A DNA stretch of 38,675 bases from an uncultured Bacilli bacterium (GTDB lineage: Bacteria > Bacillota_I > Bacilli_A > RF39 > UBA660), in the NCBI GenBank assembly GCA_947628965.1, contig CANRBV010000009.1, positions 1 to 38,675 of the forward strand, given 5' to 3'. Each line of letters begins with the position of its first letter. The stretch's first letter is position 1. Below, one piece after another: positions 5,141-25,042 of the stretch. Under the pieces are notes generated by a model that was not told where the DNA came from, ran no database searches, and worked only from the letters and a program-made list of their open reading frames with translations. The translations under genes and the position numbers were made by a program.

Positions 5141-5173
5141 GAATAAAACAGATGACTATGAACTAATCATCTG
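5141..5173 (-). terminator. Terminator at the end of the Tad/T4SS locus
   Basis: CAGATGA (5149-5155) pairs with TCATCTG (5167-5173). On the minus strand a TTTTATTC tract follows. The stem includes the last codons of the VirD4-like gene. Confidence 0.75.
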
Positions 5174-7346: not shown

Positions 7347-7410
7347 TAAAAACTCCTCCATTTCCTTTTTTCTTTTTTATTTTACAATAAACTTATCCTT
7401 TTAGCAATTC

Positions 7411-8191: not shown

Positions 8192-10399
8192 TCACTCCTG
8201 ATATTCATAAACCACAATTTTATCTAAATCTGCTACATTATAAGTATTTATTTTACCGTTGCCTGGATCATAAACAATAAAGTTATCGTTTGATATTGAT
8301 TTTAATACAACGTAGTGTCCTCTTGGATGAGCATCATTTTTAAAATGCAATATAAGACTTCTATTGCTTCCAGCATATTTGTATACGGTATTCATTTTAT
8401 CTTGATTGCTACCTGTTAAGTCTTCATACGTTTTATATTGGAACGATGGAGCAAGAGCTTTAATTGCACTATTTCCCCAATACATTCCTGCTCCTTTAAA
8501 TCCTCCCGTAGAATTCATTAATTTAACAAGAGTTCCTGGATTAAATTCAACAACATTATTGATTTTAACACCAGAGCAAGATATAGCAATAGCTACCGAA
8601 GTAACGGCACATCCTGATTCTTTCATTGTTGTCTTTGAAGAACCTAAATGGATATTTCCCCATCTTTCATCTCCTTGACGCCATATTGTACAAGAACCAT
8701 TTCCTACTTCTCCAATTTGATAAGAAGGTATACATTGATCAGCACTTAAACCAAATATTTTTTGTCTAGCATCCAACATACTTCTTGCTTGAAATGTCAA
8801 ATAGGCTTCTTTATCTTCTGCCGTAGTAGCAACGCAATCCCCACCACCAGCAGTAGTACACGTTTTTCCAGAAGCACATGCTTCTCTTACCCGATCAGGA
8901 ATATTATTTCCATAAATAGCACTTGCATAGACACAGCCCCCAACTGACCAACTTCCAGGATTATACCAGTAATCTCCTAAATAGGCATAATGTCCCATCA
9001 ATTCATTTAAAGTGGAATACTTAGATACAAATTGTAAAAAACCAGCTACGCCACTACTTAAACTATTATAAGAGATACAAGCATCATATCCTCCTGTATT
9101 GGTACAACCAAGCCCCCAATAATTGTTTTTGCTTGAACCTGGAGAATACCCTTCTACATCAGCACGAATAAAAACAAGTTCAGGATTAATTCCATTTGCT
9201 ATAGCCATATCATAAATCATTCCAGCATTATCAGCAAGAATTCTAGCATTAGACTTTCTACTTGCATATTGCTCTGCTAATCTTATGAATTCCTCTTTAG
9301 ATAAAGTAGTACTCGTCATAGATATTGCGCTACAACCTATCCCACTATATAAATCACTAAAAGCATAGCTAATGGTATAATATTCGATATCTCTTCCATA
9401 ATAGTACTCAAGTAATCGATACAATTCATATTGGGAATCTACTTTTTCTAATAAATATTTGGCTCCATATAAACTCATAGATTCTAACTTTTTAGTATGG
9501 GTTTCTTTTACTTTAGGAATTTTTTTACCTTTTTTAATTTCTAAATCATCTACCCATTCTGCAGGAATTAATTGTTGTTCTTCAATATTTTCATTCATCA
9601 TATAATAAAAATAGTTTCTATTATACGATTCATTTTCGTCCTTTCTTTTTTTTATATAACTAAAGGGTTCATATAAAGCAGGAATAATATTTCCCTCTCT
9701 ACCAATAATAATTCCTTGAGAAAGTTGAATGGCCCCCATAATTTCAGAATATTTCTCTTCGCTTCCATCCAATTCTTTAAAACTTTTTGCTTGTTCATTA
9801 TAATTTTTTAATACCACACAATTGTCGGGTAATTCCGCAATCAAACGGCTTCTTGCTGCTATTGCCATTGCTTGATAGACAATTTCATTATCTACATCCA
9901 TAGCATTATTATTATCTGTCCAAACAACACCAGCTACAAAATCATCAATTTCATAGGATTCATATTGAAATCTTTCTGTATCATTTAAATTCACTAGACT
10001 AGGATCTGTAATCTCTTCATAATCTTCATCATATTGATGTTTTTTAGTGTAAGAATCATTTTCCCAAGCTAAATTTATTTTTTCACATGTAAGACTTTCA
10101 TAATATTCAGGTTTTGGTTCTCCAATACCTACCAAATCAAAATCTAAATGTTTAACTAAAATAGTTATAAATATTGGTAATGTTAAAAGAATGATTACTA
10201 TAATCAGCAAAGACTTAGGATTAAGTAATTTAGGTAAATTTTTCTTTTTTGTTAATCCTTTTGGTTCTTCTATTAATTGTTCTTCATTATTAAAATTATC
10301 ACTAGAAGAAGGATTTGCTATATCATTGGCAAATCCCTCAGATTGTTCTAAATTTTTCTCTTCTTCTTCTAATAAATCTTCTTCATCATTGAAGTCCAT
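8192..10399 (-). CDS. Membrane-anchored multidomain peptidoglycan hydrolase of the T4SS
   Basis: This 735-residue protein starts after AGGTGAGG. The cytoplasmic N-terminus (1-60) is acidic and a membrane helix spans about 63-83. Residues about 144-260 resemble a SpoIID-like domain (FVAGVV, then YQAMAIAARSR), but the glutamate usually found just after that first motif is not seen (VVWTDNN). Residues about 365-490 look like a glucosaminidase/lysozyme-type domain (VFIRADVEGYSPG, NNYWGLGCTNTGG). The C-terminus (about 570-735) is C39-like, with C597, H695 and D711 as the likely triad. In Gram-positive conjugation systems such enzymes open the wall for the channel (VirB1/CwlT role). That role is inferred from context. 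Confidence 0.85.
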   Translation of the reverse strand: MDFNDEEDLLEEEEKNLEQSEGFANDIANPSSSDNFNNEEQLIEEPKGLTKKKNLPKLLNPKSLLIIVIILLTLPIFITILVKHLDFDLVGIGEPKPEYYESLTCEKINLAWENDSYTKKHQYDEDYEEITDPSLVNLNDTERFQYESYEIDDFVAGVVWTDNNNAMDVDNEIVYQAMAIAARSRLIAELPDNCVVLKNYNEQAKSFKELDGSEEKYSEIMGAIQLSQGIIIGREGNIIPALYEPFSYIKKRKDENESYNRNYFYYMMNENIEEQQLIPAEWVDDLEIKKGKKIPKVKETHTKKLESMSLYGAKYLLEKVDSQYELYRLLEYYYGRDIEYYTISYAFSDLYSGIGCSAISMTSTTLSKEEFIRLAEQYASRKSNARILADNAGMIYDMAIANGINPELVFIRADVEGYSPGSSKNNYWGLGCTNTGGYDACISYNSLSSGVAGFLQFVSKYSTLNELMGHYAYLGDYWYNPGSWSVGGCVYASAIYGNNIPDRVREACASGKTCTTAGGGDCVATTAEDKEAYLTFQARSMLDARQKIFGLSADQCIPSYQIGEVGNGSCTIWRQGDERWGNIHLGSSKTTMKESGCAVTSVAIAISCSGVKINNVVEFNPGTLVKLMNSTGGFKGAGMYWGNSAIKALAPSFQYKTYEDLTGSNQDKMNTVYKYAGSNRSLILHFKNDAHPRGHYVVLKSISNDNFIVYDPGNGKINTYNVADLDKIVVYEYQE

Positions 10400-10423: not shown

Positions 10424-12208
10424 TTATAGTCCTCCACCACTACCAAATGAATCTAGTTCTTCTTGGGTTACGATAACATTAATACGCATTCTTCTATTAC
10501 CACAGATAAATAGTCCTTCCCCTTGATTGTAATATTTGATACTTTCTTGTTCTGCATCATTTAAATCAATTAATTTTCCTAAATCTTCCGTTGCTTGTTT
10601 ACGTAAGCCCATTATTAAATAGTAAGAAGCATTATCGAATATAGCTTTACCATGTACCAAAACATTTGGTGCAGCGAAATCCGTTGGTTGTTGGGTAATA
10701 ATAATTGTTCCTGTATTATACTTACGACTACGTCTTTGGATTTGGGCTAGGAATTCGGCTCCTAATTCATTTCTAGTTGATAAAAGCACGTGGGCTTCAT
10801 CTACACACATAACAGTATCTACATCTTTATCTAAACACAAACCCCAAGCATACTTCAAGATATTAAAGAATAAAGCATTTTTAATATTATCATCACTATT
10901 CATTAATTCTTTTATATTAAATACGATAAAATCGCTTTCAATACTTAAAGTAGTATGGCCTGTAAAATAGTATTTAAGTTCTTTAACAAGAGGTCTTACC
11001 TTTAATTCAAGACGTTCCATAACATCTTTTTCATGCGTTTTATCAGGCATAGATAAAAGTCTACCTTTGATGGTTGCATAAACATCATCAAACGTTGGAT
11101 AATCATTAGCAGTAAGTTTTGTAAAATCTGTATCGTAATCAATTTTATAACGTTTGTAAGTATCTTGAACAACTTCACTAAACATTGTTAGAACATCTTC
11201 TTCAATTGAAGGAGAATAATATTTCATAAATGCCTTCAATTGTTGTAAGGTTCTTGTTAAAACGGTATAGCCAAGTCCTTGCTCAATTTCTTCTTCATCC
11301 GCATCTACAACGATTTCCAAAGGGTTAATCATACCAAAAGCTCCACCCTTACCTAAGTCTAAGAAGTCTCCTCCAACAAAACGGGTCATTTCAGCAAGTT
11401 CACCTTCAGGGTCAATACATACAACTTTATATCCGTTTCTCAAGTGTCCTCTAATTAACAACTTAGCAGCAGTTGATTTTCCACTACCACTTGTACCTAG
11501 AATAATCATATTGGCATTATTACGATTGTTTTCTTTTTTTATTTTATATAAGAATTGATTAAATAAAACAACGCCTCCAGAAAAATCAACACCAAATAAA
11601 ATACTATTTCCTGGATCTTTAATACTATCAAATATAAAAGGATACATAGCAGCAACTGTAACAGATGGAATTGGTGTTCCCACACGATTTTCAATATCTT
11701 GTTTAGGGAATATTGGTAAAATAGATTTTAATACTTTCTCTTGTTCAAACATCAAAGGAATTCCACGCATTCCCATACCTTCCAAATAGTTTCGTACTTG
11801 CATTTTCTTCATTTCTAGTTCTTCTTTATTATCTGCGGAGATGAACAAATGCATTTGGAAATCAAAAATTCTAGCTTGAGTTGCTGCAAGCATTTGAATA
11901 AATTGTTCTAGAGATTCATAATCTTGACGAATGCGTTCTTGAAAGGTTTTATCATTTTCCGTTTGATATCTTTGTTTTAAATCTGCAATTTCTTTATTAA
12001 GCATTCTTTGTAAAGTTGAAAAAGCAATGGGAATATGTTTAATGGCTACTTTAACGCCAGAAATATTGGTAATATTGGCAAGATATCCTTCTGAAATATA
12101 TTTGGGATACGTTACAATTGTTAAAATTGTACAATACTTGCCACTAATCATCATTTCAGTTGGTTTAAATTCAATCCCCTTTGGGGCTAATTGACTTTTT
12201 ATATTCAT
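10424..12208 (-). CDS. VirB4-family ATPase, C-terminal motor part
   Basis: VirB4 proteins are the ATPases that assemble and drive type IV secretion channels. This 594-residue protein has Walker A GTSGSGKS at 238-245, CIDPEGELAEM at 264-274, Walker B CVDEAH at 468-473, and the QQPTDF motif typical of VirB4/TraC near 510. The first 200 residues include the end of the N-terminal VirB4 region. The ATG overlaps the stop of the preceding gene (ATGA, 12205-12208), so the two are translationally coupled. The preceding 184-residue protein appears to supply the missing N-terminal domain, which would make VirB4 split in two here. Confidence 0.93.
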   Translation of the reverse strand: MNIKSQLAPKGIEFKPTEMMISGKYCTILTIVTYPKYISEGYLANITNISGVKVAIKHIPIAFSTLQRMLNKEIADLKQRYQTENDKTFQERIRQDYESLEQFIQMLAATQARIFDFQMHLFISADNKEELEMKKMQVRNYLEGMGMRGIPLMFEQEKVLKSILPIFPKQDIENRVGTPIPSVTVAAMYPFIFDSIKDPGNSILFGVDFSGGVVLFNQFLYKIKKENNRNNANMIILGTSGSGKSTAAKLLIRGHLRNGYKVVCIDPEGELAEMTRFVGGDFLDLGKGGAFGMINPLEIVVDADEEEIEQGLGYTVLTRTLQQLKAFMKYYSPSIEEDVLTMFSEVVQDTYKRYKIDYDTDFTKLTANDYPTFDDVYATIKGRLLSMPDKTHEKDVMERLELKVRPLVKELKYYFTGHTTLSIESDFIVFNIKELMNSDDNIKNALFFNILKYAWGLCLDKDVDTVMCVDEAHVLLSTRNELGAEFLAQIQRRSRKYNTGTIIITQQPTDFAAPNVLVHGKAIFDNASYYLIMGLRKQATEDLGKLIDLNDAEQESIKYYNQGEGLFICGNRRMRINVIVTQEELDSFGSGGGL

Positions 12209-12759
12209 TCTGGCATCACCGTCCCTAGTGTAGTTGCTTGTCCACCATTAAAGAAATTATCGATAAGCATTCTTAAATCATTATTTGATACTTGTGTTGC
12301 GTTAAGTCCACACGTAGATAAATTGCTTATTAAATTGTGAATTCTTTTTTGAACAATATCCAATTTTTTCTCTTTAAATAAGATATAGTATTCTGTATCA
12401 ACCACGTTATATTCAGCACTCATAAACATATTGGCTTTATTAATATCTTGCATTATGAGTTTTCGAATTGCACCACTATTTGCATTATTATAAAGAATTT
12501 GCAATTGCGATAAATGAACGTTAATATCTACGGGACGATCCGCAATAATTAACCAGAATTCATAATCCATTGTATTATAAAAATTTCTTAAATTATAAAT
12601 GGTTTGATTTTGAGTGTCTTGATCCAAAATAAAGATGTTTTTAGGAGCAATTTTAACTCCTGTTACAAATTCATTTGAATCCAGTTGAATCATTCCATTC
12701 ATAATTTGTTTAATTGGAACCCAATCTTCCGTATATTTACTAGCTTTATTATTTTTCAT
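12205..12759 (-). CDS. VirB4 N-terminal domain as a separate protein
   Basis: This 184-residue soluble protein reads like the start of a VirB4/TraC protein (DWVPIKQIMNGMIQL, then FVTGVKIAPKNIF), a non-catalytic alpha/beta domain ahead of the ATPase. It has no Walker motifs. It ends in an ATGA overlap with the VirB4 motor gene and overlaps the PrgI-like gene by 11 bp, so the three are one tightly coupled unit. The two VirB4 parts together (about 778 residues) match a normal single-chain VirB4. The assignment rests mainly on position, size and the opening motif. Confidence 0.75.
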   Translation of the reverse strand: MKNNKASKYTEDWVPIKQIMNGMIQLDSNEFVTGVKIAPKNIFILDQDTQNQTIYNLRNFYNTMDYEFWLIIADRPVDINVHLSQLQILYNNANSGAIRKLIMQDINKANMFMSAEYNVVDTEYYILFKEKKLDIVQKRIHNLISNLSTCGLNATQVSNNDLRMLIDNFFNGGQATTLGTVMPE

Positions 12760-13060
12760 CTCTTATACACCAGCCTTTCCAATATAATCTTTTTCTATTA
12801 AATCCAAATAAAATAATATTTGTTAACAATTGCAATACATTATGATAATTTGGAACAGGCATAACTAAAAATGCTGAAATTAAGGCTGGGCATAATACAA
12901 GAAGTAACGAACTCATATCCATTTTATCATTAAGTAAAAATAGCAATCCTAAAGTAATCGTACAGCCTATTCCAAATATTACTAAATCAACTGGTGTAAA
13001 AAAGCCTAATATTAACATTGATTTTTTTGAATTTGCTGGTATTAAATAATTATTATTCAT
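12749..13060 (-). CDS. PrgI-like/VirB3-like small membrane protein
   Basis: This 103-residue protein has two membrane helices (about 18-40 and 48-67) and a C-terminal signature, FGFNRKRLYWKGWC, resembling PrgI-family proteins of Gram-positive conjugation clusters, which are placed as VirB3 counterparts. PrgI/VirB3 genes usually sit directly before virB4, as here. The protein would sit in the membrane and anchor VirB4. The final residues overlap the start of the VirB4 N-domain gene. Confidence 0.75.
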   Translation of the reverse strand: MNNNYLIPANSKKSMLILGFFTPVDLVIFGIGCTITLGLLFLLNDKMDMSSLLLVLCPALISAFLVMPVPNYHNVLQLLTNIILFGFNRKRLYWKGWCIRDEK

Positions 13061-13079: not shown

Positions 13080-15095
13080 CTATTTTTTATCATTTGAACC
13101 CTTATCTGATTTACCTTTACTTGAAGAAACACCACTTAAACTTCCTAAACCTCCAGGAACACCTTTCATATCTTTAAAAGATTCTTTAAGCATAGATTCC
13201 TGAATGGCCGCTTCTTCTGCATGTTCTTCTCTCCAAGCTTTAACAGCCTTTTCTGTTTCACGTCGTTTAACATATTCTCTATTAGCCTTATATCTTTCAT
13301 TAATAATACCCATATTCTTTCTAACATTTGAAATAATGGTACTTTCATCCAAAGAAGCGTATTTAGCAATTTCATTTTCTAATTGTAAATTATGATATTC
13401 TTCTGTCTTTAATCTTTCAATTTGAGTTCTTAAATCATTATCTTCAAATTGAGAGCTTTTTAATTTATCAATTTCTTCTTGAATTTGTTTTTGTTTTACT
13501 GTATCAAATTCCTCTTCTGCTTTTAATAACTTATTATTTAAATCATTTAACTTACTCTCTCTTTGTTCATCATATCTTTTCGCTTTTTTATTGTAATCAT
13601 TTTGCATAGCTTCTATTCTACTTAATCTTTCTTTATCATATTTTGCTTTTTCTTTTGCCAATTGTTCATTTAATTTCTCATATTGATATTCCATGCTTGC
13701 TTTTTCTTGGTTTAACAATTTTTTAAATTCTTTTGAATTTTCAGTTCTTGAAACATAATTTTTGGCCTTTTTTTCATATGAATCTTGGATCTTTTTTTTG
13801 TAATCAGAAGGTAGTCGATCCCAGTAACTTCTTCCACCAAATAACCCTGATTTTCCTTCCATACCTAAAACATCTGAATAAACGCCTTGCCTTTGAGCCT
13901 TAAACTGATTCCCTCGACCTTTCCATCCTTTATATGCTCCATAACCCATTCCTGAAAGAATACCTCTAATTCCTGCATGGTTCACTCCTGCTGCCCAAAT
14001 GCCCCCTAAAGCTCCAGTAAATGCTCCCGTTACTCCAGCTATGGCAGGTACAGAGCTCAATTTTCCACCAATACCTAACTTAATGTTACCAGAATCAACT
14101 CCAATAGCATCACTAATTAACTTCGGTGCTTGCTTAGCAAAAACAAATAAGCCTAAAATAATAATTACTCTTTCAAACGTTCCAATTCCACCACTATTCA
14201 AAGATATAATGTTCCCATCAAAAATGGAACTACATATTTCTGTTATTAATACCATAATAAATAATCTTATAAAAACTTCTAAATAAGTTGCAATCGATGC
14301 TTTAACCCAATTATCAAATACTGATTTTTTTTCGGGTAAAATATGTAGAAGTATGGGAATAGGTGCTATTAATTGATAAAATGCCAATTTAAATACCCTT
14401 ACTCCTAAATCAATGCAGAAAGATAGAATAACATAAGCTAAAAATATTCCACATAATGTTCCTAAAATTGGAATATACGAAGCTCCCCCTTCACCTTCAT
14501 GTATTGGTTCTGCAAAAGTAGCAATATTCAAAAAATTATTACTATTCCCATTTAAAAGTACAGATTTCATTTCACCCCAGGTGGCCAAACCTGTCCCATC
14601 AGCATTATAAATACTCCCCTCAACACTATCGTCACTAAAGTTTAAAAATGCCGACATTAACTCGAAAGCAATTCTATTTCCACTTGTTGCGATATTCATA
14701 TTACTCGTTTCATTATTAAAGAATATATTACTTATAATATTTTCTCTAATAATTATATTTTGTAATGTTCTTGCATAACTAAATATTACTGGAACTATTC
14801 CCAATAAAATTAAGGAAATAATAATATTCGTAACTAATTTTGACGTATCCTTTGCTAAATTGTCTGGATTTATTAATGCTTTAAGTAAAGAATAAGCTAC
14901 AATAAAAAGCATTGATACACCGATTATGACATAGACTCTATCTATAATTTCTTGAAAAAAGCTGTCCTTAATTATCTCTGCGCCAGCTAAAGAAGAATAC
15001 AAAGAAAATAATTTGCTTATTACCCAATAGGTTAATCCATCAAGAAGCAAAAAAAGACCAGTCAATCCTGTTTGAAAAACTTCTTTTAATGTCAT
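13080..15095 (-). CDS. VirB6/TrbL-like polytopic membrane protein with long coiled-coil tail
   Basis: This 671-residue protein probably forms the inner-membrane channel of the T4SS. It has about six or seven membrane helices (roughly 10-30, 52-75, 85-105, 210-262, 270-292, 305-325), with an extracytoplasmic loop at about 110-205. A glycine-rich segment near 345-390 is followed by a cytoplasmic tail of about 280 residues. That tail is very rich in Lys, Glu and Gln with heptad-like spacing (about 435-640), so it is likely a long coiled coil. It ends in a Gly/Ser/Lys-rich stretch. The ATG at 15095 has GGGGTGA upstream at a rather long distance. Its order before PrgI/VirB4 matches Gram-positive conjugation clusters. 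Confidence 0.82.
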   Translation of the reverse strand: MTLKEVFQTGLTGLFLLLDGLTYWVISKLFSLYSSLAGAEIIKDSFFQEIIDRVYVIIGVSMLFIVAYSLLKALINPDNLAKDTSKLVTNIIISLILLGIVPVIFSYARTLQNIIIRENIISNIFFNNETSNMNIATSGNRIAFELMSAFLNFSDDSVEGSIYNADGTGLATWGEMKSVLLNGNSNNFLNIATFAEPIHEGEGGASYIPILGTLCGIFLAYVILSFCIDLGVRVFKLAFYQLIAPIPILLHILPEKKSVFDNWVKASIATYLEVFIRLFIMVLITEICSSIFDGNIISLNSGGIGTFERVIIILGLFVFAKQAPKLISDAIGVDSGNIKLGIGGKLSSVPAIAGVTGAFTGALGGIWAAGVNHAGIRGILSGMGYGAYKGWKGRGNQFKAQRQGVYSDVLGMEGKSGLFGGRSYWDRLPSDYKKKIQDSYEKKAKNYVSRTENSKEFKKLLNQEKASMEYQYEKLNEQLAKEKAKYDKERLSRIEAMQNDYNKKAKRYDEQRESKLNDLNNKLLKAEEEFDTVKQKQIQEEIDKLKSSQFEDNDLRTQIERLKTEEYHNLQLENEIAKYASLDESTIISNVRKNMGIINERYKANREYVKRRETEKAVKAWREEHAEEAAIQESMLKESFKDMKGVPGGLGSLSGVSSSKGKSDKGSNDKK

Positions 15096-15116: not shown

Positions 15117-15536
15117 TTACCATCCACATGTTTCTGAACTTATTTGCGCAATATTTAATAAAAAATCAATCAAAGTAGGCAAAACAAATATAATTGCCCC
15201 AATTATTAATCTCTTACCGAATTTACTTACTGCTGCTTTAATTTCATCTTGCTTTTGAGCAAGCATAGCTTTTACAAAATCCACAATGGAAAGAACAATT
15301 ATTAAAATTGGAATCACAATTTTAATAAAATGGAAAATTTGCTTTAAAAAATCTCCAAATGACCCTGTACATAAAACATTAGTATTTTCAAATTTTTGAT
15401 AAGTTAATGGCCTTATTAACTGAGAAACACCAACATTTTCAATACTTAAATTACCATTTTGTTGAGCATTTACGTTCATAAATCCAATACAAATTATTAT
15501 CAATATAAAAACTATCTTTTTACTAATTTTTTTCAT
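15117..15536 (-). CDS. VirB2-like subunit with signal peptide
   Basis: This 139-residue protein has a signal peptide (about 1-24, ending VNA-Q), a short ectodomain with one Cys, and two membrane helices joined by a charged loop. The core pattern KIVIPILIIVLSIVDFVKA, then QDEIKAAVSKFGKR, then IIFVLPTLIDF is shared with the genes at 15614-16756 and 18011-18397. Two-helix subunits with this topology in a T4SS cluster are most simply VirB2/TrbC-type pilin-like proteins. It is followed after 21 bp by the VirB6-like gene and has an extended -10 upstream, so it probably leads the T4SS core operon. Confidence 0.7.
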   Translation of the reverse strand: MKKISKKIVFILIIICIGFMNVNAQQNGNLSIENVGVSQLIRPLTYQKFENTNVLCTGSFGDFLKQIFHFIKIVIPILIIVLSIVDFVKAMLAQKQDEIKAAVSKFGKRLIIGAIIFVLPTLIDFLLNIAQISSETCGW

Positions 15537-15580
15537 GTTATCACCTACAATTTAAGTATCAGCCTACTTATTCTTTAATC

Positions 15581-15589
15581 ATTATATCA
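15581..15589 (-). promoter_or_regulatory. Extended -10 promoter element before the VirB2-like gene at 15117
   Basis: TGATATAAT on the minus strand matches the extended -10 pattern. The sequence AATTGATATAAT is identical to that upstream of the gene at 15614-16756. Confidence 0.5.
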
Positions 15590-15613
15590 ATTTTTACAAG
15601 ATATTGCTAGATT

Positions 15614-16756
15614 TTATTCTTTGTTACATTTATTTGGATTTAAAACACATGTATAACATTCCACAAAATTTGATTCGCTATTTTTTGAAAGCAAATCAAA
15701 AACAAAATTTACGATAGTAGGTATAATAAAAATAATAATAGCAATAAGGATTCTATTAATTAAAGATTTAGTAGCCTTCTGAATTGCACTATCTTCTGAC
15801 GTAGTTAAGGCTTTTGAATAATCTATAGTTCCCATAATTATTAAAATAATTGGAACTAATATTTTAACAATCATTAATAAATGCCCAATAAAATTTAAAG
15901 TTTTGATTACATCCTTATTATTACATAATTCATTTAATTCTATTCCTTTATTTATTAAATCGGAAGCTTCTCGACATGAAATATTAGAATTAAATGAATA
16001 ATTACATTTACCATTGCAATAATATTCAACATCACTATCATTTTTTATACTATTCCCACATATAAATGTATATAAATCAGGATCGTAAGTTTTTAATTGT
16101 GTTATGTTACCTAAATAATCATAGGTTCCCCATTTAATTTTCTTAGTTTTAGAATTAAAAAAAATGTCAGGGCAAGAATCGCCAATCATTCCGTCATTGA
16201 TCGTTTCTTCACTTCCATCTGGGTAAGTAATTTTAGTTTCACTATTAGGTGACTCTTTTTTTACTAGTATTGTTTTACTAGAGTTTTGACTTTTATAATT
16301 ACAAGTATATCCTTTTTCATGGAGTTCATGTTGCGGATCTGCAAAATATTTACAATTATTTAAAGGACAACTATATTCTTTAATATATAATGGCGTATCT
16401 GATGCTTCTGCATCAGACAATAAAATCAATGAACCACTTTCTTCTCCTGAAGTTTTAACTGCTAAAGATGGACATTGAAGGATTTCTGTAGACTCATTCA
16501 ATATTTTATACTTAATTAAATCTTGCTTTGTATTTGGGGCTATTCTAGTAAAAATATCTTGTGTCCCATCAATATTTTTAAATTCATAGTCATAAGTATC
16601 CATATTAGAATATGTAAAATCAATTAACATATAATAGGCAGCATTATTCCCCTCACTATCAAAGGAATATTCACAATATAATGTTTTATCCTCTTCGGCA
16701 TATACTTTTAAAAAACCAAAAAAAATTATAAATATTGAAAAAAATATTTTTTTCAT
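15614..16756 (-). CDS. Exported cysteine-containing protein with C-terminal VirB2-like domain
   Basis: This 380-residue protein has a signal peptide (1-20, VYA-E) and an extracellular domain of about 270 residues with many cysteines in pairs (for example CPLNNCKY and CNGKCNY), suggesting disulfides. A C-terminal two-helix module (about 292-352: KILVPIILIIMGTIDYSKA, RILIAIIIFIIPTIVNF) is followed by a short Cys-containing end. The module is the same as in the genes at 15117 and 18011. It therefore looks like a VirB2-like subunit carrying a large outer domain, perhaps a tip or minor subunit. That role is inference. Confidence 0.65.
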   Translation of the reverse strand: MKKIFFSIFIIFFGFLKVYAEEDKTLYCEYSFDSEGNNAAYYMLIDFTYSNMDTYDYEFKNIDGTQDIFTRIAPNTKQDLIKYKILNESTEILQCPSLAVKTSGEESGSLILLSDAEASDTPLYIKEYSCPLNNCKYFADPQHELHEKGYTCNYKSQNSSKTILVKKESPNSETKITYPDGSEETINDGMIGDSCPDIFFNSKTKKIKWGTYDYLGNITQLKTYDPDLYTFICGNSIKNDSDVEYYCNGKCNYSFNSNISCREASDLINKGIELNELCNNKDVIKTLNFIGHLLMIVKILVPIILIIMGTIDYSKALTTSEDSAIQKATKSLINRILIAIIIFIIPTIVNFVFDLLSKNSESNFVECYTCVLNPNKCNKE

Positions 16757-16781
16757 ATAAATCCCTACTTTTTCATAAATG

Positions 16782-16790
16782 ATTATATCA
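16782..16790 (-). promoter_or_regulatory. Extended -10 promoter element before the gene at 15614-16756
   Basis: TGATATAAT on the minus strand, 25 bp before the start codon. A palindrome (16798-16821) covers the place where a -35 would lie. Confidence 0.5.
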
Positions 16791-16797
16791 ATTATTT

Positions 16798-16821
16798 TAT
16801 AATTTTACTAGTAAAATTATA
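16798..16821. repeat. Perfect 24-bp palindrome over the promoter region (operator candidate)
   Basis: TATAATTTTACT is followed directly by its exact reverse complement. It lies upstream of the -10 at 16782-16787. There is no strong T-tract on the minus strand, so a repressor site is as plausible as a weak terminator for the gene at 16835-17944. It shares the TTTTAC half-site with the palindrome at 18462-18476. Confidence 0.5.
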
Positions 16822-16834
16822 GAAACAAATTTTT

Positions 16835-17944
16835 TTATCTTATTGTATATGGATTATTATAACTTCCATCACCACTAGCAAATAATACATCACTTCTTAA
16901 AGAAACAACAAAACGATTTTGAGCAGTAATATTTGTATAAGAAGATTCAAGCACACCTTTTCGAGAAACATAAAAAGCATTATAAGTTGTAGCTACATCT
17001 CCAGTCATTGTCCACCATTTAAATTTATTATCTGCTAAATAATTATAATTTTGACATTCTTTACTAATGGTTGTAGTGCATAATCCATCTAAACTTGCGT
17101 TCATATAATCATATACTGGCAATAAACCAATATATTGCTTTTCAATTTTCTCATTACATTCTAAATTGCCATTTTTTGAAGTGCTTTCTTCTCCTCTTTT
17201 TCCTACACATAAATCAAATGTAGATAAATATGGCTCGTAGCTTTTAAAATTATTTTCATAAAAATTTATAATATTTGTATAAGCTCTACTTAATAAAAAA
17301 TTGTTAATTCCTTTTTGAGATTCTTTTTCAGTATTATAGCGATCATCCCATTCTTCTGTAATGTCTGCTTTTTCCGTAGTAACAATTAATTCTATCGTTC
17401 CCTCTTTACTAATTTTTACAATTCTCCATATACGATCAGCAAAACTTACATAATTATTTGGATTTTGGCCTCTAAAAACAAGTTCATTATTCATCTCATA
17501 TAAGCCATCTCCTGTTTGAGATATTTTATTATTCTTTTTAATAACATCCATAAATTTTTCGGTTTTAAAATTATTACATGTTAAATAGGTTTGATATTTA
17601 TAATTATTGTTTGCAACAAAGTCAACCAAAATATTTGCTGTACAAGAAGAATCCTTAACATATTTTTTAAGTTCTTTTATATATTTATTAGTAATTAATG
17701 TATCAGCACTTACGACTATTGTAGGATTAGACTCTGTTGGAAACTCATTAGGATTATCCGTTAAATAACTACGTGTAGCATCTTCTAACTTTTCCTCTAA
17801 TTTTTCGTAAGAAATTTTAACACCTACAAACTTTACAGCTATTGAAATTGTTAAAATAATAAGTAGCATTACAAAAACAACACTTCCAAATAAAATTAGT
17901 TTTTGTTTTTTATTATCATCTATTTTCTTTATCTTCTCTTTCAT
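16835..17944 (-). CDS. Membrane-anchored surface protein of the T4SS/Tad locus
   Basis: This 369-residue protein has a Lys-rich start, one membrane helix (about 16-38), then a helical stalk and an extracellular domain. The domain opens with FRGQNPNNYVSFADRIWRIV and closes with VVSLRSDVLFASGDGSYNNPY. I associate this pair of motifs with a family of uncharacterised exported Bacillota proteins (DUF6273-like). The N-terminal helix plus stalk resembles a minor-pilin layout. Several cysteines lie in the outer domain. It has its own promoter. A display or adhesion function is possible but not shown by the sequence. Confidence 0.65.
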   Translation of the reverse strand: MKEKIKKIDDNKKQKLILFGSVVFVMLLIILTISIAVKFVGVKISYEKLEEKLEDATRSYLTDNPNEFPTESNPTIVVSADTLITNKYIKELKKYVKDSSCTANILVDFVANNNYKYQTYLTCNNFKTEKFMDVIKKNNKISQTGDGLYEMNNELVFRGQNPNNYVSFADRIWRIVKISKEGTIELIVTTEKADITEEWDDRYNTEKESQKGINNFLLSRAYTNIINFYENNFKSYEPYLSTFDLCVGKRGEESTSKNGNLECNEKIEKQYIGLLPVYDYMNASLDGLCTTTISKECQNYNYLADNKFKWWTMTGDVATTYNAFYVSRKGVLESSYTNITAQNRFVVSLRSDVLFASGDGSYNNPYTIR

Positions 17945-17965
17945 CTATGAATCACCATAATTAAA

Positions 17966-17994
17966 ATTATACACTATGACAAATAAAAAAGCAA
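17966..17994 (-). promoter_or_regulatory. Promoter of the gene at 16835-17944, nested in a terminator
   Basis: TTGCTT (17989-17994) and TATAAT (17966-17971) are separated by 17 bp. The -35 is the 3' arm of the terminator of the upstream VirB2-like gene. Confidence 0.7.
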
Positions 17995-18008
17995 TTTTTA
18001 CATTGCTT
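17985..18008 (-). terminator. Terminator of the isolated VirB2-like gene
   Basis: AAGCAAT (17989-17995) pairs with ATTGCTT (18002-18008), followed by six T on the minus strand. Confidence 0.8.
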
Positions 18009-18010
18009 AA

Positions 18011-18397
18011 TTATTCAGCATCACCTTTCCAAGCATCTTCTGCAGGGCAATCACCACTTGTAGGACTCGTTATACATTTTCTACAAACATCGTAATCAGC
18101 AGATATGTCCTCGTTACTGCTAAAATCGGTAACCAATCCAATTATAAATGTAACAATGGTAGGCAATAAGAATATAACTATTGCAGCAATAGCTCTTTTA
18201 ACTAAAGATGTCGTTGCTTTTTTTATTTCATCATCTTTACTTGCAATTACGGCTTTTCCTAAATCCATAACACCAAATATAATTAATAAAATAGGAATTA
18301 CTATTTTAAACACTAATAAAACATATCCTATTATTTGCCAAATATTCGCAGTTTTAGTACAAAAATTAATAGCATCCAACGTTAAATATAAATCCAT
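18011..18397 (-). CDS. VirB2-like subunit, transcribed as a single gene
   Basis: This 128-residue protein has two membrane helices (about 18-46 and 62-90) with the shared core KIVIPILLIIFGVMDLGKA, then KDDEIKKATTSLVKRA, then IFLLPTIVTF. There is no separate signal peptide. The C-terminal tail is acidic with three cysteines (CRKCITSPTSGDC). It is the smallest and simplest of three paralogues. It alone is bounded by a terminator on each side and has the best promoter of the region (TTGACA-17-TAAAAT). Separate strong expression suits an abundant structural subunit, so it may be the main T4SS pilin-like protein. That role is inference. Confidence 0.7.
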   Translation of the reverse strand: MDLYLTLDAINFCTKTANIWQIIGYVLLVFKIVIPILLIIFGVMDLGKAVIASKDDEIKKATTSLVKRAIAAIVIFLLPTIVTFIIGLVTDFSSNEDISADYDVCRKCITSPTSGDCPAEDAWKGDAE

Positions 18398-18431: not shown

Positions 18432-18460
18432 ATTTTACTGGTTATTTTATTTAATGTCAA
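18432..18460 (-). promoter_or_regulatory. Strong promoter of the isolated VirB2-like gene
   Basis: A perfect -35, TTGACA (18455-18460), a 17-bp spacer and TAAAAT (18432-18437) lie on the minus strand. The start codon is 35 bp further on. Confidence 0.85.
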
Positions 18461-18461
18461 G

Positions 18462-18476
18462 TTTTACAATGTAAAA
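18462..18476. promoter_or_regulatory. Palindrome next to the -35 (operator candidate)
   Basis: TTTTACA-A-TGTAAAA is a perfect 15-nt palindrome immediately upstream of the -35 box, a position used by activators or repressors. Confidence 0.4.
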
Positions 18477-18510: not shown

Positions 18511-18538
18511 CAAAAAATACTTTCCTTTAAGAAAGTAT
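18511..18538 (-). terminator. Terminator at the end of the Tad operon
   Basis: ATACTTTC (18517-18524) pairs with GAAAGTAT (18531-18538), followed by six T on the minus strand, directly after the TadZ-like gene. Confidence 0.88.
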
Positions 18539-18539
18539 C

Positions 18540-19535
18540 CTATGATTTAAATATATTGAACAATTTACTATTCTTTGTTTCAGTTTCATTTGATTCTTCA
18601 AAACGAACAAAACCTAATTTAACTAAAAGTTCTTCCAATTCTTTATGATTATCCAATTTATCATCTAAATAAGGAATATTAAAGAAAACTTTGCTTTTTG
18701 ATTCATATTCAAAATCTTTAACATCTCTTTGATTAAGAATACTTCTATTTAATATTATTTTTTTATCACGCAACTTTTCAAATGTTCTTTTATCCTTACG
18801 AATTAACTTATTTAATTTAATTAAACCTGGTTCAATTAAATAGAGAACTTCTGTACAAGAACTAATACTTCCACGATCATTTAAATCAACTAAAATTACT
18901 TCGGCTTCACTATTGGTAGCAATAAAAGATGGTAAATCCAAACTTGAAGTGCTTCGTAACGTTTTATCATTAAAATAGATAAAATCATGTTCATCCACTT
19001 CCACTGCAATAACATTATATTTTTTAGCAAGTTCTTTTTTTAATAAATATGTTAAAGTAGTAGATCCTGCATGATTGGTGACATTTTTTATACCAATAAC
19101 GCGTAAACCTAATTTATTGTAATCTCCACCTTCATCACTAGAAGTATTTATCGTATTTAATTGATGATATTGTGCTACATCCTTATATGAATTAGGATTA
19201 TTGATTAAAAATTTAATTGCATCGATATTTCTTGTAAAATTATAAATTCCCATAGAAATTAATGAAGATAAAAATTTTGGAGAGTTTACAACTTCTGAAT
19301 CATCTAATAAAAGAATAATATTACTAACATCCATACTCACAGATAAATTTTGTAGAGTTGTAATATCTTGATAATTTTTAAGAGCGGTAATATCTAATAT
19401 CATTTTATTATAATAAAAGTTTGTAAACTGATTGACTAAGTCTTCAACTTCAAACTCTCCATTAATATTTTTAATGATATCAATATCCAAAGTAGCTAGT
19501 AAGGATTGATATTTATTTGACACTATAACATTCAC
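18540..19535 (-). CDS. TadZ/CpaE-like MinD-superfamily protein
   Basis: TadZ/CpaE proteins mark the pole or site of Tad assembly. They pair an N-terminal receiver-like domain with an atypical MinD/ParA-type domain. This 331-residue protein fits. Residues about 1-125 are receiver-like, and from about 143 a MinD-like fold begins (VIGIKNVTNHAGSTTL, then ELAKKYNVIAVEVDE, then VILVDLNDRGS). The P-loop is degenerate: where Walker A normally has GKT/GKS there is GST, with no lysine. ATP hydrolysis is therefore doubtful and a structural role more likely. It is the last gene of the Tad unit and is followed by a terminator. Confidence 0.7.
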   Translation of the reverse strand: MNVIVSNKYQSLLATLDIDIIKNINGEFEVEDLVNQFTNFYYNKMILDITALKNYQDITTLQNLSVSMDVSNIILLLDDSEVVNSPKFLSSLISMGIYNFTRNIDAIKFLINNPNSYKDVAQYHQLNTINTSSDEGGDYNKLGLRVIGIKNVTNHAGSTTLTYLLKKELAKKYNVIAVEVDEHDFIYFNDKTLRSTSSLDLPSFIATNSEAEVILVDLNDRGSISSCTEVLYLIEPGLIKLNKLIRKDKRTFEKLRDKKIILNRSILNQRDVKDFEYESKSKVFFNIPYLDDKLDNHKELEELLVKLGFVRFEESNETETKNSKLFNIFKS

Positions 19536-20526: not shown

Positions 20527-20766
20527 TTAACCTTTCCAAGGGCATTGGAAATCTGCGCCTTGCTTTTTTCCATTTACATAATATTCACATGTAACATGAC
20601 CATTATTTAACGTTTTTTTATCACAAATAGCATCACTACACTTATTATTTGCAATAAATGTACTTCTAATGCTTGGCCACAAAACAGCAAAGAAAAAGAC
20701 CGATAGGATTCCTACCGCCAATACAACTACTACTGTCATATTTAGTTCACCTGTGGCCTCTTTCAT
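20527..20766 (-). CDS. Small Flp-like pilin
   Basis: This 79-residue protein begins MKEATGELNMTVV, identical over 13 residues to the next gene, followed by a hydrophobic helix to about residue 35. A small hydrophilic domain follows with four cysteines that probably form two disulfides. Size, single N-terminal helix, tandem copies and position beside TadB/C/CpaF fit Flp-type pilins. The usual glycine/glutamate cleavage motif is unusual here: the lead before G6 is only six residues. Whether it is cleaved is unknown. Confidence 0.68.
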   Translation of the reverse strand: MKEATGELNMTVVVVLAVGILSVFFFAVLWPSIRSTFIANNKCSDAICDKKTLNNGHVTCEYYVNGKKQGADFQCPWKG

Positions 20767-20794: not shown

Positions 20795-21058
20795 TTATCC
20801 GTTGCTTATTGTATTACCTTTTTCGTTATTTGGACAAGTTACTGTATCTGTAGTTACTCCGTCTTCTTTTAAGTATGTACATGTACAAGTTCCACCAGAA
20901 GCAGGGCAATTACAATCAATAACATTAGCACATTTTGTACTATTTAAAATATTTGTTTTAATACCTGGCCAAATAAATGCATAGAAGAATGCAGCTACTG
21001 CTGCTATTGCTACTACAGTTACAACCGTCATATTTAATTCTCCAGTCGCTTCTTTCAT
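20795..21058 (-). CDS. Small Flp-like pilin, paralogue
   Basis: This 87-residue protein shares the MKEATGELNMTVV start and an alanine-rich helix ending FFYAFIWPGIK. The outer part has seven cysteines (CANVIDCNCP, GTCTCTY, VTCPN). GAGGAGG lies upstream at a good distance. With the gene at 20527 and the truncated copy at 21111 it forms a tandem pilin family. The different cysteine patterns suggest diverging subunits, not redundant copies. The promoter at 21278-21306 would drive this group. Confidence 0.68.
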   Translation of the reverse strand: MKEATGELNMTVVTVVAIAAVAAFFYAFIWPGIKTNILNSTKCANVIDCNCPASGGTCTCTYLKEDGVTTDTVTCPNNEKGNTISNG

Positions 21059-21249
21059 TTTATAAATTCCTCCTCTTTTTATTGAGTAGGATTAGTAGCA
21101 GCAGTATGCTTTATTCTTCTAACTCAGCTTTATTCATGCATGTATTCATGCACTCAGTATCTTCATTGCATTGGACTTCACAAGTACTCTTTTGAATACT
21201 TGCTTTTACATTAGGCCAAATAAATGCATAGAAGAATGCAGCTACTGCT
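20967..21249. repeat. 36-bp exact direct repeat between pilin and truncated pilin
   Basis: The same 36 bases lie at 20967-21002 and 21214-21249, 247 bp apart. They encode AAFFYAFIWP and flanking bases in the intact and the truncated pilin. The repeat is long enough for recombination between the copies. Confidence 0.85.
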
Positions 21250-21257: not shown

Positions 21258-21277
21258 CCCTACCCTCTATTACTCTT

Positions 21278-21322: not shown

Positions 21323-22111
21323 TTACATACCCATTAACATTAATACTGCAAATATTAAGAGTATCATAACACCTAAACCAGTTGTAATTAACATACTCAT
21401 GGTTTTAGATTCCATTTTTTCAAGTCTTTCTTTATATCTTGTTTCACGTGCTTTTTGTTGTAAATTAGAAATCGTTTTAGAAAAAGCTAATAATTGATCT
21501 TGCTTATGTTCTTGTCTACCTAAACTTAAACGATATAAAAGACGCATCATACGCATGGAATCTCTTACAGGATATTGTTTTGCAAAATTAACATAAGGAT
21601 CAATTTTATCATTACCAGCATTTATTTCATTAATTAATTCTTGTAATCCCTCTCTAAATATTGGAGGTGCATCATTAATCGATTTTCCAATAGCTACTGG
21701 TACCGTGTAGTGTTGAATTAAAATTTCCAAACTCTTTAGATAGTGCGGTAACATAGAATTAATTTCATGTAAATGGGCTTTATAGTATTTTTTAATATTA
21801 AAATAATCTAATTTAAATACTAAATAACCACCTATAACACTAAATAATAAAGTTATATAATTTAATTTTGATATAAAACAAAAAACCAAAACAACAATTG
21901 TAATTAATCCATTACGAACTCTTTTATTGAATAGAATATCACCATTTGCGCCATCACCATATTTGGCACGAACGTAAAAGTCCCAATCATCTTCTTTTAA
22001 TTTACGAAAATAGACTTCATTATCAGCTATAAAACGATTTGCACTAATTCTACCTGTATAATTCATGATAAAAAGGAAAATAACACCAACAATTAATATT
22101 TCTATAGCCAT
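21323..22111 (-). CDS. TadC-like inner-membrane platform protein
   Basis: This 262-residue protein belongs to the GspF/TadB-TadC family that forms the membrane base of Tad pilus machines. A membrane helix lies at the start (about 2-18), a pair at about 68-103 and one at the end (about 238-260), with a cytoplasmic helical domain between. YKERLEKMESKTMSMLITTGLG before the last helix is typical of the family. It begins 3 nt after the TadB-like gene, so the two are translated together. Confidence 0.82.
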   Translation of the reverse strand: MAIEILIVGVIFLFIMNYTGRISANRFIADNEVYFRKLKEDDWDFYVRAKYGDGANGDILFNKRVRNGLITIVVLVFCFISKLNYITLLFSVIGGYLVFKLDYFNIKKYYKAHLHEINSMLPHYLKSLEILIQHYTVPVAIGKSINDAPPIFREGLQELINEINAGNDKIDPYVNFAKQYPVRDSMRMMRLLYRLSLGRQEHKQDQLLAFSKTISNLQQKARETRYKERLEKMESKTMSMLITTGLGVMILLIFAVLMLMGM

Positions 22112-22113
22112 AT

Positions 22114-23013
22114 CTATTCAACCCCCACATCTGCATTATAGTACTTCTCACCACTTAATAAGAAATAACTATTAATAATTATAATTGCATGAAGTATCAG
22201 TTGAACATACCATATATCTAAGAGTTCGATATAACTATCTGTTCCAAGTAAAAATTGCATTGCCATAACAAGTAAGAATAAGGCAAGTCCAAAGGTTATA
22301 AAACGTTTATGGAAGTTTTTACGATCCGCTTGATCACGATAAACACCTTCAACTAAAGCATCGATATCTTGACTCATATTTTCCAAAGCTTCTCCTGAAT
22401 CTTTAGCACCTTCTTTAGTAATTTGTAAGAACAATTGATTCATATTTTTTACCATATAGAAAGGATATTTTTCATTAAAGAATTCAATAGATTCATCAAT
22501 TGTACCATTTTGATAAGACATATCAATCATGGTTTTAACATCCTGTAAAACAGGATCTTCTAATATTCCTGAATCTCTTACTCCTTCTAGAGATTTAACA
22601 AAACTTTGTGTTGTTGTAAATTCCATAATAACATTGGTTGTATAAATTTGAATTTGTTCAAAGATAAATTCACTATATATTTTTTGATATCTTAAATAGG
22701 CTAAATAAGGAATAAAAGCAACAGCAATTAAAGCATAAATAACTGTAATTACAACATTATAAAAATATAAGTAAGATATAACCCCTGCAACGCCCGCAAA
22801 TATGACAATTTGACTCGTATATTGTTTTGTCGTAAAGTCTTGTCCTAAAGATTTTACTTTTTCTCTTACCTCTTTATAACTATAAGGAGCAAACTTATCA
22901 TATGTATCTTTTACTTGTGTAATAAAGAAACGATACACATTTTCTCCATTATTTTGACGATAAGATACAACATATATTCCTATAATCCATAAAATAATTA
23001 ATTCCATTTTCAT
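22114..23013 (-). CDS. TadB-like inner-membrane platform protein
   Basis: This 299-residue GspF-family membrane protein pairs with TadC. The hydrophobic segments lie at about 4-18, 68-105, 233-253 and 266-288. Between them the cytoplasmic domain includes TTQSFVKSLEGVRDSG and a conserved acidic helical stretch (GEALENMSQDIDALVEG). It follows the CpaF gene by 10 bp. The order cpaF-tadB-tadC is the standard Tad order. Confidence 0.85.
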   Translation of the reverse strand: MKMELIILWIIGIYVVSYRQNNGENVYRFFITQVKDTYDKFAPYSYKEVREKVKSLGQDFTTKQYTSQIVIFAGVAGVISYLYFYNVVITVIYALIAVAFIPYLAYLRYQKIYSEFIFEQIQIYTTNVIMEFTTTQSFVKSLEGVRDSGILEDPVLQDVKTMIDMSYQNGTIDESIEFFNEKYPFYMVKNMNQLFLQITKEGAKDSGEALENMSQDIDALVEGVYRDQADRKNFHKRFITFGLALFLLVMAMQFLLGTDSYIELLDIWYVQLILHAIIIINSYFLLSGEKYYNADVGVE

Positions 23014-23023
23014 TTACTCCCTT

Positions 23024-24148
23024 CTATATCGTATCGACGGCTGTAGCCGTATTATTCGTAGGTGTTATATTTGATATAGTTTTAGTATTACTTCCTGTTC
23101 TAAATATATTTTCTGGAAGTAATACCCCTTGGATAGATAAGTAATCTTTTAAGTGTTGGGTTGGATTATTTAAAGTCATTTTTCCATCCATTGATTTTTG
23201 AAATATGGTATTTACTTGTGGTTTATTATCATCATCTACATAAAATTCACATATTTCCATAATTTCTCTTTGAAATCTTCCTAATTCTTTACTCATATAT
23301 CCTTTTACATAAACACCTATTTGAACATATCGATGAATTGTAGCTAAAAATTGTTCTACTTCTTGATTTGTCTCTAATAAACTATACATACGCATAGGTA
23401 TAGAAGAAGCTTTATCCGAGTGGATTGTTGACAAGATATGATGTCCAGAAGAAATTGAGTTACGAACTGCCAAAACAGCTTCTGCACTACGCACCTCAGA
23501 CAATAGAATCCATATTGGGTTTTGTCTCATACAAGTTACCAAAACATCGGTATAAGAAGCAATATTATTCGTTTTCATAGCTACAATATCTCGATGTGGA
23601 AAGATTCGATCTAAGTGAAGTTCCAAAGTATCCTCAATTGTAATAATTTTTTCATCCTCTTTTGTTGTACTTGCCAAGTATTTAACAAGTTCTGTTTTAC
23701 CTGAACCAGTCTCACCACTTACAATAATATTGGCATGCCCTTGAACACATTGTAATAAAAAATCTAATAAATCTTCTGAAACATATTTTTCGTTAATTAA
23801 TTTTTCTCTGTTCAATCGAATTTTTGAAGGAGTTTTACGGATTAAACAAGCTATACCATTTGTAGCAATTGAATCATGAATGAAATTCAAACGAAGTTCT
23901 GTAGACTCAGCATCCAAAAAAGGATGTGCCATATTAAAGGTTTTACCCATAACATTTGAACATTGAAAAGCTAGTTTTTCCATAAGAGCATTATTAATTT
24001 CAGGGCGTTCTACTTTGAATACACCACGAGAAAGTGTCTTTAACCAAACTTGTCCACCATTACTATAAGAAATATCGGTAACATCATCAATTCGCAAAAA
24101 TTCTTCTAATGGTCCAAAATCTAATTGCGAAAATATCGCATCATCCAT
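23024..24148 (-). CDS. CpaF/TadA-type secretion ATPase
   Basis: This cytoplasmic hexameric ATPase drives pilus assembly in Tad systems. The 374-residue protein has Walker A GETGSGKT at 145-152, the Asp box IEDT at 171-174, a Walker B-like strand WILLSEVR (213-220) with the conserved GEVR-type Glu/Arg, and the His box GHHILSTIHS (235-244). An N-terminal domain of about 90 residues precedes the core. The C-terminal 40 residues are Asn/Thr-rich and probably disordered. A VirB11 ATPase is absent from the locus, so this protein could serve both modules; that is speculation. Confidence 0.93.
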   Translation of the reverse strand: MDDAIFSQLDFGPLEEFLRIDDVTDISYSNGGQVWLKTLSRGVFKVERPEINNALMEKLAFQCSNVMGKTFNMAHPFLDAESTELRLNFIHDSIATNGIACLIRKTPSKIRLNREKLINEKYVSEDLLDFLLQCVQGHANIIVSGETGSGKTELVKYLASTTKEDEKIITIEDTLELHLDRIFPHRDIVAMKTNNIASYTDVLVTCMRQNPIWILLSEVRSAEAVLAVRNSISSGHHILSTIHSDKASSIPMRMYSLLETNQEVEQFLATIHRYVQIGVYVKGYMSKELGRFQREIMEICEFYVDDDNKPQVNTIFQKSMDGKMTLNNPTQHLKDYLSIQGVLLPENIFRTGSNTKTISNITPTNNTATAVDTI

Positions 24149-24190: not shown

Positions 24191-25042
24191 TTATTGGTTA
24201 TTTGTATTATTATTGTTATCGTTATTGTTGTTATCTGAATTATTGGTTTGTGTATCTATAGTATTTTGTGGAATCGTTGCACTTTTTGATAAAATAAAGG
24301 AACGAATATAATCACTTGATACACGAGTTTCTCCAGGAGCTGCACTATAAGAGGCATTTCTTGGTACTGGAATAATTTCAATAGATGAACCAATATATCC
24401 AGCTTTCATTAATAAGTCATACATATCATTTGGTACAGCAAATAATAATTCAGATGGCGTACGAGATTCAACAGTAGATTCAAACACATGATTTCCTTGG
24501 CTATCTTTAACTGCTAAAACTTCAATACTTTCAATTAATTTACCAAACATTAATAAATTACTATCATCTACCCCTTTAAAGTATAAATCAATATAATTTC
24601 CAGGATAAATGGAATTACCATACGTTGAATGTAAATTTACTCCTAAACTATAAATCGTATAACCATCTGGTATATTTGCAAACGCACTATCTGGTAATTC
24701 TTCAGATGTTAAAATTTGTGATTTATAGAATAAACTATTTGCTGGAATAACAGCACCATAAGAGACATAGTTATTAATTAGATCACTCGCATTCGTAATT
24801 AAATTTGGACTATTTTTAACCATGCTACTAGATACTTCCATATAGCCAATCATTTCACTTGTAATAAGTGTTCTTGAAGATAACTCTTCCTTAGCATAAG
24901 GAACAGTTATTGGAGTCGTTGCTTGTTTTACACGATAATTATAACCTATGTATAATACTAATATCGCTAATAGCACTCCTAGTATTGTTACAGTATTTTT
25001 ATTTCCTAAAAATCTTTTAACTGTTGTCATTATATTTCCCAT
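24191..25042 (-). CDS. CpaB/RcpC-like protein with SAF-type domain
   Basis: This 283-residue protein has one N-terminal membrane helix (about 17-33). An extracytoplasmic SAF-like region follows (about 44-110: VPYAKEELSSRTLITSEMI and YVSYGAVIPANSL), then a beta-rich domain with FAVPNDMYDLL. It ends in an Asn-rich low-complexity tail of about 20 residues. AGGAGG eight bases before the ATG fixes the start. CpaB proteins stabilise Tad pilus assembly and in diderms meet the secretin. With no outer membrane expected here, it probably guides the fibre through the wall. Confidence 0.82.
   Translation of the reverse strand: MGNIMTTVKRFLGNKNTVTILGVLLAILVLYIGYNYRVKQATTPITVPYAKEELSSRTLITSEMIGYMEVSSSMVKNSPNLITNASDLINNYVSYGAVIPANSLFYKSQILTSEELPDSAFANIPDGYTIYSLGVNLHSTYGNSIYPGNYIDLYFKGVDDSNLLMFGKLIESIEVLAVKDSQGNHVFESTVESRTPSELLFAVPNDMYDLLMKAGYIGSSIEIIPVPRNASYSAAPGETRVSSDYIRSFILSKSATIPQNTIDTQTNNSDNNNNDNNNNTNNQ

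Follow-up and report, generated by a model that had tools for sequence, protein, structure and literature searches.

VirB2-like pilins in described systems and at the locus

Type IV secretion systems (T4SSs) of the monoderm type have been described in Patescibacteria, where VirB2 genes occur in arrays of 2-11 and a relaxase is usually missing (PMC12102498). A December 2025 review describes VirB2 as absent from Gram-positive T4SSs, with Patescibacteria as the single exception (PMC12857230). Type IV pili are also used by Saccharibacteria in host binding (PMC12206443), whilst in the archaeal Ced and Ted systems VirB2-like pili go together with homologues of VirB4 and VirB6, Ced working with Ups pili (PMC9905601). 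Here we describe three VirB2-like genes, designated B2a, B2b and B2c, on a contig of an uncultured Bacilli bacterium (CANRBV010000009.1; all 38,675 nucleotides were analysed and are referred to as the window), where they sit between a tight adherence (Tad)-like pilus cluster and a T4SS cluster. The host family comprises gut-dwelling, small-genome Bacilli related to mycoplasmas. A literature search found no description of the locus in these Bacilli, and the papers on the lineage that were found made no mention of pili. The explanation we favour, and consider rather probable, is a chromosomal T4SS that bears VirB2, has no linked relaxase, uses one major and two specialised pilin subunits and stands alongside a Tad-like pilus.

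Like the T4SS of Patescibacteria (Saccharimonadia), which comprises VirB4, PrgI/VirB3, VirB6 and a type IV coupling protein, mostly with no relaxase, the system described here shares its genome with a separate second pilus cluster (Tad-like here, a type IV pilus in Patescibacteria). Unlike in Patescibacteria, which belong to another phylum, the T4SS lies beside a Tad-like cluster, its pilins have conserved cysteine tails and exchange their outer domains among scaffolds, and the leading pilin gene is preceded by a conserved promoter of its own. The nearest NCBIfam names, all sub-threshold, come from mollicute integrative and conjugative elements (ICEs): Mbov_0395/MMCAP2_0565 pilin-like for B2a and B2b, MMCAP2_0566 for B2c and Mbov_0396 for VirB6. 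In mollicute genomes, genes of the T4SS_pilin family PF18895 adjoin a gene for a large membrane protein in a VirB6-like position. Unlike ours, the mollicute ICE genes belong to mobile elements. The mollicute loci that were read have one small pilin with neither cysteine tail nor outer domain, and the short stretches read showed no Tad cluster alongside. Alignment profiles of B2a and B2c found no match in these loci, so that PF18895 and the sub-threshold NCBIfam names alone make up the mollicute link. Given the mollicute PF18895 genes and the pilin-like names of ICE proteins in NCBIfam, the blanket statement of VirB2 absence is already too strong.

The archaeal systems (CedA1, TedC) also have two-helix pilins of VirB2-like type, and their partners resemble VirB6 and VirB4. 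The Ced system of Sulfolobales acts together with a second pilus, the type IV pilus Ups, comparable with the Tad-like pilus here, and no signal peptide is cleaved from CedA1 before use, as would be the case for B2a (PMC9905601). No sequence relationship to Ced/Ted was shown, and the similarity to TedC (8dft) was not significant. As in Tad pili, a CpaF-type ATPase and a CpaB/RcpC-like protein are encoded beside small Flp-like open reading frames (ORFs), whereas TadB, TadC, CpaE and Flp were recognised here by position only.

Homologous pilin modules and the expression unit of B2a

An earlier note on this DNA had described three VirB2-like paralogues with a common two-helix core. All three ORFs were found on the minus strand at the places it gave, the shared motifs are real, and aligning the modules with BLASTP and hhalign demonstrated homology of all three. 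B2a matched B2b at 40 % over 93 amino acids (aa) (E 3e-14; hhalign probability 99.9, E 4.5e-34) and B2c at 42 % over 53 aa (E 6e-10; hhalign probability 99.3, E 4.4e-20). B2a, B2b and B2c thus share a homologous module, VirB2/T4SS_pilin-like in type, with two long helices and a short charged loop between them. The AlphaFold2 model of B2a was a two-helix hairpin (helices 17-51 and 55-89; predicted local distance difference test score 79.8), and the pilin-module helices of B2b were modelled at 281-319 and 322-359. PF18895 was the recurrent family match of the pilin genes: it was matched by 22 of 23 B2a orthologues (E up to 0.1; best 4.6e-7) and 15 of the 18 sequences in the B2c alignment, and a six-frame search gave scores above its curated cut-off for several members of this taxonomic family. 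The B2c alignment gave no TrbC match above threshold. Searching the PDB with the B2a profile returned chance matches only, mostly G protein-coupled receptors and nucleoproteins, and Pfam matches to seven-transmembrane receptors, Frizzled and the RnlB antitoxin were dismissed as sub-threshold.

Four cysteines of B2a (Cys13, Cys105, Cys108 and Cys117) were invariant in 42 family sequences, the last three forming a CxxC...C pattern. The B2b pilin module ends in CxxC...PxxC, the CxxC tail being common to B2a and B2b, and B2c has a single invariant cysteine near its C-terminus. Under a positive-inside topology, all these pilin cysteines would be extracytoplasmic, which makes it likely that they form disulfides. 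Just outside the pilus block, at 29186-30348 (+), a gene for a thioredoxin-like protein adjoins a CAAX-type protease gene; the former (29186-29626) is predicted to be membrane-anchored and displays a CSHC motif and weak similarity to PedC/BrcD and TrbB.

The earlier note had further placed B2a alone between two terminators behind TTGACA-17-TAAAAT. The promoter is there, as are the two hairpins (-14.6 and -11.5 kcal/mol; z -5.9 for the upstream hairpin and -4.0 for the other), but the upstream hairpin, strong as it is in this genome, is essentially particular to it. Of 16 genomes, 15 retain the terminator downstream of B2a, which shuffles almost never match. An AAGAGG resembling a Shine-Dalgarno sequence follows the promoter. 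A lone promoter match is unexceptional in DNA this AT-rich, the window having 123 promoter-like sites against 125 expected. The same promoter (with TAGAAT in one case) nevertheless precedes B2a in every one of the 15 genus genomes scanned, with little variation in its spacing to the start codon, compared with 0.7 % of shuffles. Family-wide, 78 of 86 B2a-type genes have it at 10/12 or better, even where the neighbouring genes differ, and the eight exceptions are extra short paralogues and not the leading gene. None of the 117 other family pilin genes had a promoter score of 11 or more, a comparison carrying a small bias because the B2a windows scanned were 30 bases longer. In the genus scan no other T4SS gene reached 11/12, and outside B2a only the Flp-like position did so (6/8 for f87 and 3/14 for f79). 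Conserved promoter and downstream terminator thus mark B2a as a predicted single-gene transcription unit, which supports its being an abundant subunit. The palindrome TTTTACAATGTAAAA next to the promoter suggests an operator, and a number of B2a orthologues in the genus have comparable AT-rich half sites in their upstream regions.

The large cysteine-containing outer domain that had been attributed to one paralogue is present on B2b (approximately residues 21-275, beta-rich), but relatives carry such a domain on either B2b or B2c, or on the two together; L041 and L045 combine a short gene in the B2b position with a long B2c. For the 87 family pilins with a long N-terminal domain, the best match of the C-terminal module in another genome was always on the same scaffold (87/87). 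For 11 of 83 N-terminal outer domains, by contrast, the best match lay on a pilin of the other scaffold; the L057 B2c domain, for example, is 60.5 % identical to the L053 B2b domain. The outer domain therefore moves between pilin scaffolds, and such mobility suits a recognition or adhesin role. Neither Foldseek nor VIA-align found a match for the B2b outer domain, over much of which model confidence was low, and this does not imply a new fold. In nearly all T4SS loci, the final pilin gene ahead of VirB6 is of the B2c type. In three loci (L080, L088 and L099, 10-18 kb into each), T4SS genes are accompanied by five to eight VirB2-like pilins directly upstream of VirB6, most with long divergent N-terminal domains.

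These observations bear on the earlier proposal of one abundant and two minor or specialised subunits, which gains support as an interpretation. Because B2a alone has a conserved, dedicated strong promoter and terminator throughout the family, it would be the abundant subunit, whilst the place of B2c-type genes before VirB6 and the swappable outer domains of B2b and B2c point to specialised roles for these two.

Assignment of the pilins and rival explanations

VirB4 orthologues were detected in 97 of 117 genera, TadB-like proteins in 96 and both in 86, a co-occurrence significant by Fisher's test when relatedness and assembly gaps are ignored (p 0.0003); the two genes lie no more than 20 kb apart on one contig in 36 genera. 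The pilins accompany VirB4 in four genomes with no detected TadB orthologue (G464, in 9 contigs, G488, G520 and G525) and are missing from two, G515 (3 contigs) and G493, which have the Tad-like set and in which no VirB4 orthologue was found. Several other drafts with Tad genes only do have pilins, and in these the contig ends right beside the pilin. On this pattern the pilins were assigned to the T4SS, with a minority probability left for a role of B2a in the Tad-like machine, which was ranked lower after the comparison. Gene neighbourhoods vary: in some genomes CpaB, CpaF, TadB, TadC and B2a stand together with the T4SS on another contig, and in others T4SS loci with five to eight pilins have no neighbouring Tad genes.

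Several points weigh against a VirB2-bearing T4SS with B2a as its major subunit. In one subclade (L096, L100, L102, L108, L110, L113, L123 and L131) B2a directly follows the TadC-like gene and VirB4 lies elsewhere. The window copies of the pilins all score below the curated PF18895 cut-off (B2a reaches 25.0 bits against 26.6), Foldseek gave no significant structural match for B2a and VIA-align no convincing pilin match. The Pyrobaculum conjugative pilin 8dft aligned with B2a at Z 4.9 and 3.6 Å over 89 residues, which is not above unrelated rows, and the VirB2 fold match behind the subunit reading is accordingly weak. The strength of the B2a promoter is, moreover, a prediction.

From the subclade arrangement, B2a might serve the Tad-like machine as a platform or accessory subunit, leaving only B2b and B2c to the T4SS. 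At least eight genomes with B2a right after the TadC-like gene and VirB4 on another contig favour this, as does the strong promoter type shared by B2a and the Flp-like position only. We nevertheless regard it as improbable, since B2a orthologues lead T4SS pilin loci that have no neighbouring Tad genes (L080, L088, L099 and L091) and since the pilins follow VirB4 and not TadB in the genomes listed above. Alternatively, the pilin-like proteins could serve the T4SS as small channel or scaffold subunits in the membrane, without ever assembling into a pilus outside the cell. The Gram-positive T4SSs known so far have been described as devoid of pili (PMC12857230, PMC12102498) and no solved pilin was matched significantly, but the PF18895 similarity, the strong dedicated promoter and the large outer domains of B2b and B2c better suit a multi-copy surface polymer, and we give this explanation little probability as well.

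We likewise think it unlikely that the cluster represents a conjugative element, its relaxase lost or encoded elsewhere, with the pilins serving conjugation. A VirD4 coupling protein is present, mollicute ICEs have a pilin-like gene adjoining a VirB6-like gene, and the genome of the window (G000) has one PF03432 relaxase, on C3 and not on the T4SS contig C9. Against this, in a search confined to PF03432, no relaxase was found on C9 or in most genus genomes. VirB4 orthologues are 65-85 % identical in most of the 117 genera, the best plasmid VirB4s among the matches listed are approximately 29 % identical, B2a had no match among 72,556 plasmids, and housekeeping genes lie on both sides of the cluster. 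As far as the PF03432 and plasmid searches reach, the locus does not appear to be a mobile element, and we do not class it as an ICE.

If the cluster is a VirB2-bearing T4SS as we favour, B2a would be produced in surplus, through its separate promoter and terminator, and would form a short pilus or the wall of a channel on a VirB6/PrgI/VirB4 platform, with disulfides of the extracytoplasmic cysteines bracing the subunits. B2c, whose gene adjoins that of VirB6, would be the subunit nearest the platform or the one that starts assembly, and B2b (with B2c in some relatives) would provide decorated minor subunits displaying an exchangeable recognition domain. The adjacent Tad-like pilus may make first contact with another cell, after which the T4SS would pass on a substrate, either protein or DNA, that VirD4 selects.

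Genomic setting and significance of the locus

The window is one contig (C9; G+C 29 %) of a 1.23 Mb genome of 91 % completeness. GenBank entries for its relatives mostly carry the names uncultured Bacilli, Tenericutes, Mycoplasma or Candidatus Ventrenecus, and many of them are of animal-gut origin; the lineage is probably of the RF39 type. The locus forms a minus-strand block running from 29030 to 5163 (Table 1). It opens with two large surface-type genes, a DUF5411 gene and the CpaB/RcpC-like, CpaF and TadB/TadC-position genes, followed by the small Flp-like ORFs, two more small membrane-anchored ORFs and the CpaE-position gene. B2a, P369, B2b and B2c come next, and the VirB6-like, PrgI-like, split VirB4, C39 peptidase, a smaller protein and VirD4 genes close the block. 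Gene order is fixed across the genus, where the pilins keep company with VirB6-PrgI-VirB4N-VirB4-C39, and the linkage was also seen beyond the genus.

Table 1. Positions of the pilin genes, their regulatory features and neighbouring genes in the window
Feature	Position	Strand	Basis or remark
B2a, VirB2-like pilin	18011..18397	-	128 aa; proposed major subunit; no evident signal peptide
B2b, VirB2-like pilin	15614..16756	-	380 aa; signal-peptide-like N-terminus; C-terminal pilin module 281-380
B2c, VirB2-like pilin	15117..15536	-	139 aa; signal-peptide-like N-terminus; directly before VirB6
B2a promoter, TTGACA-17-TAAAAT	18432..18460	-	11/12 consensus
Palindrome TTTTACAATGTAAAA, operator-like	18462..18476		Adjoins -35 box of B2a promoter; partly conserved in genus
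B2a downstream terminator	17982..18008	-	AAGCAAT-loop-ATTGCTT-T run
Terminator of upstream gene 18540-19535	18512..18541	-	
P369, single-transmembrane protein with outer domain	16835..17944	-	Between B2a and B2b throughout genus
VirB6-like polytopic membrane protein	13080..15095	-	Weak NCBIfam matches: Mbov_0396, pLS20_p028, TrbL families
PrgI/VirB3-like protein	12749..13060	-	Sub-threshold PF12666
VirB4N, N-terminal part of split VirB4	12205..12759	-	Position; split conserved
VirB4 ATPase	10424..12208	-	PF19044, 6.5e-13
C39-type cysteine peptidase, VirB1-like position	8192..10399	-	PF13529
VirD4/TraG coupling protein	5163..7361	-	PF02534, 1.9e-53
CpaE-like position gene	18540..19535	-	Position; no family confirms identity
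Two small Flp-like pilin candidates	20527-20766, 20795-21058	-	Position and N-terminus only
TadC-like and TadB-like membrane proteins	21323..23013	-	Position and size only
CpaF-type secretion ATPase	23024..24148	-	PF00437, 4.6e-27
CpaB/RcpC-like protein	24191..25042	-	PF16976, 1.5e-5, slightly below cut-off

Family searches were firm for CpaF (nearest solved relatives CpaF, 7.7e-18, and VirB11, 1.1e-15), VirB4 and VirD4. A VirB4 ATPase with a VirD4 coupling protein, one mark of a monoderm-type (FATA-like) T4SS, and a CpaF/TadA ATPase, one mark of a Tad pilus, are thus both present. For PrgI and VirB6 the matches were sub-threshold (the latter to Mbov_0396/TrbL families), with order and size in agreement. 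The TadB, TadC, CpaE and Flp candidates found no family match in profile searches and take their names from order, size and N-terminus. No VirB8-like candidate emerged from the family searches run, none of which was aimed at VirB8. The VirB4 gene at 10424-12759 (-) consists of two overlapping ORFs of 184 and 594 aa, a split kept in the relatives read. Before CpaB, a 135-aa gene at 25071-25478 (-) matched DUF5411 strongly (PF17424, 4.8e-57), which ties this family to the Tad-like locus. A degenerate third Flp-like copy was identified between the TadC-like gene and the 87-aa Flp-like gene (approximately 21110-21260, -), with a readable end ...VAVAAFFYAFIWPNVKASIQKSTCEVQCNEDTECMNTCMNKAELEE and an N-terminus broken by stops. 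At the contig end, two tandem near-identical short ORFs (MMKKINKKVEDYEKALDAYLFYDKKQLEEAG...; 38059-38669, -) represent a recent duplication.

In sum, VirB2-like pilins appear to be a long-kept chromosomal feature of a whole Bacilli family, beside a Tad-like pilus cluster. The conserved B2a promoter and the exchanged outer domains offer handles on whether monoderm bacteria build T4SS pili, and the locus also offers one on the role of T4SSs with no linked relaxase in gut bacteria. A more tentative idea, which we hold to be unlikely as a whole, is that this family of small-genome gut Bacilli makes contact with other cells by an apparatus that is related to the one in epibiotic Patescibacteria or has converged on it. 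A Tad-type pilus would capture a cell, and a VirB2-piliated T4SS with interchangeable recognition domains on its minor subunits would dock and exchange material. If true, a common uncultured lineage of the gut would live attached to partners and depend on them.

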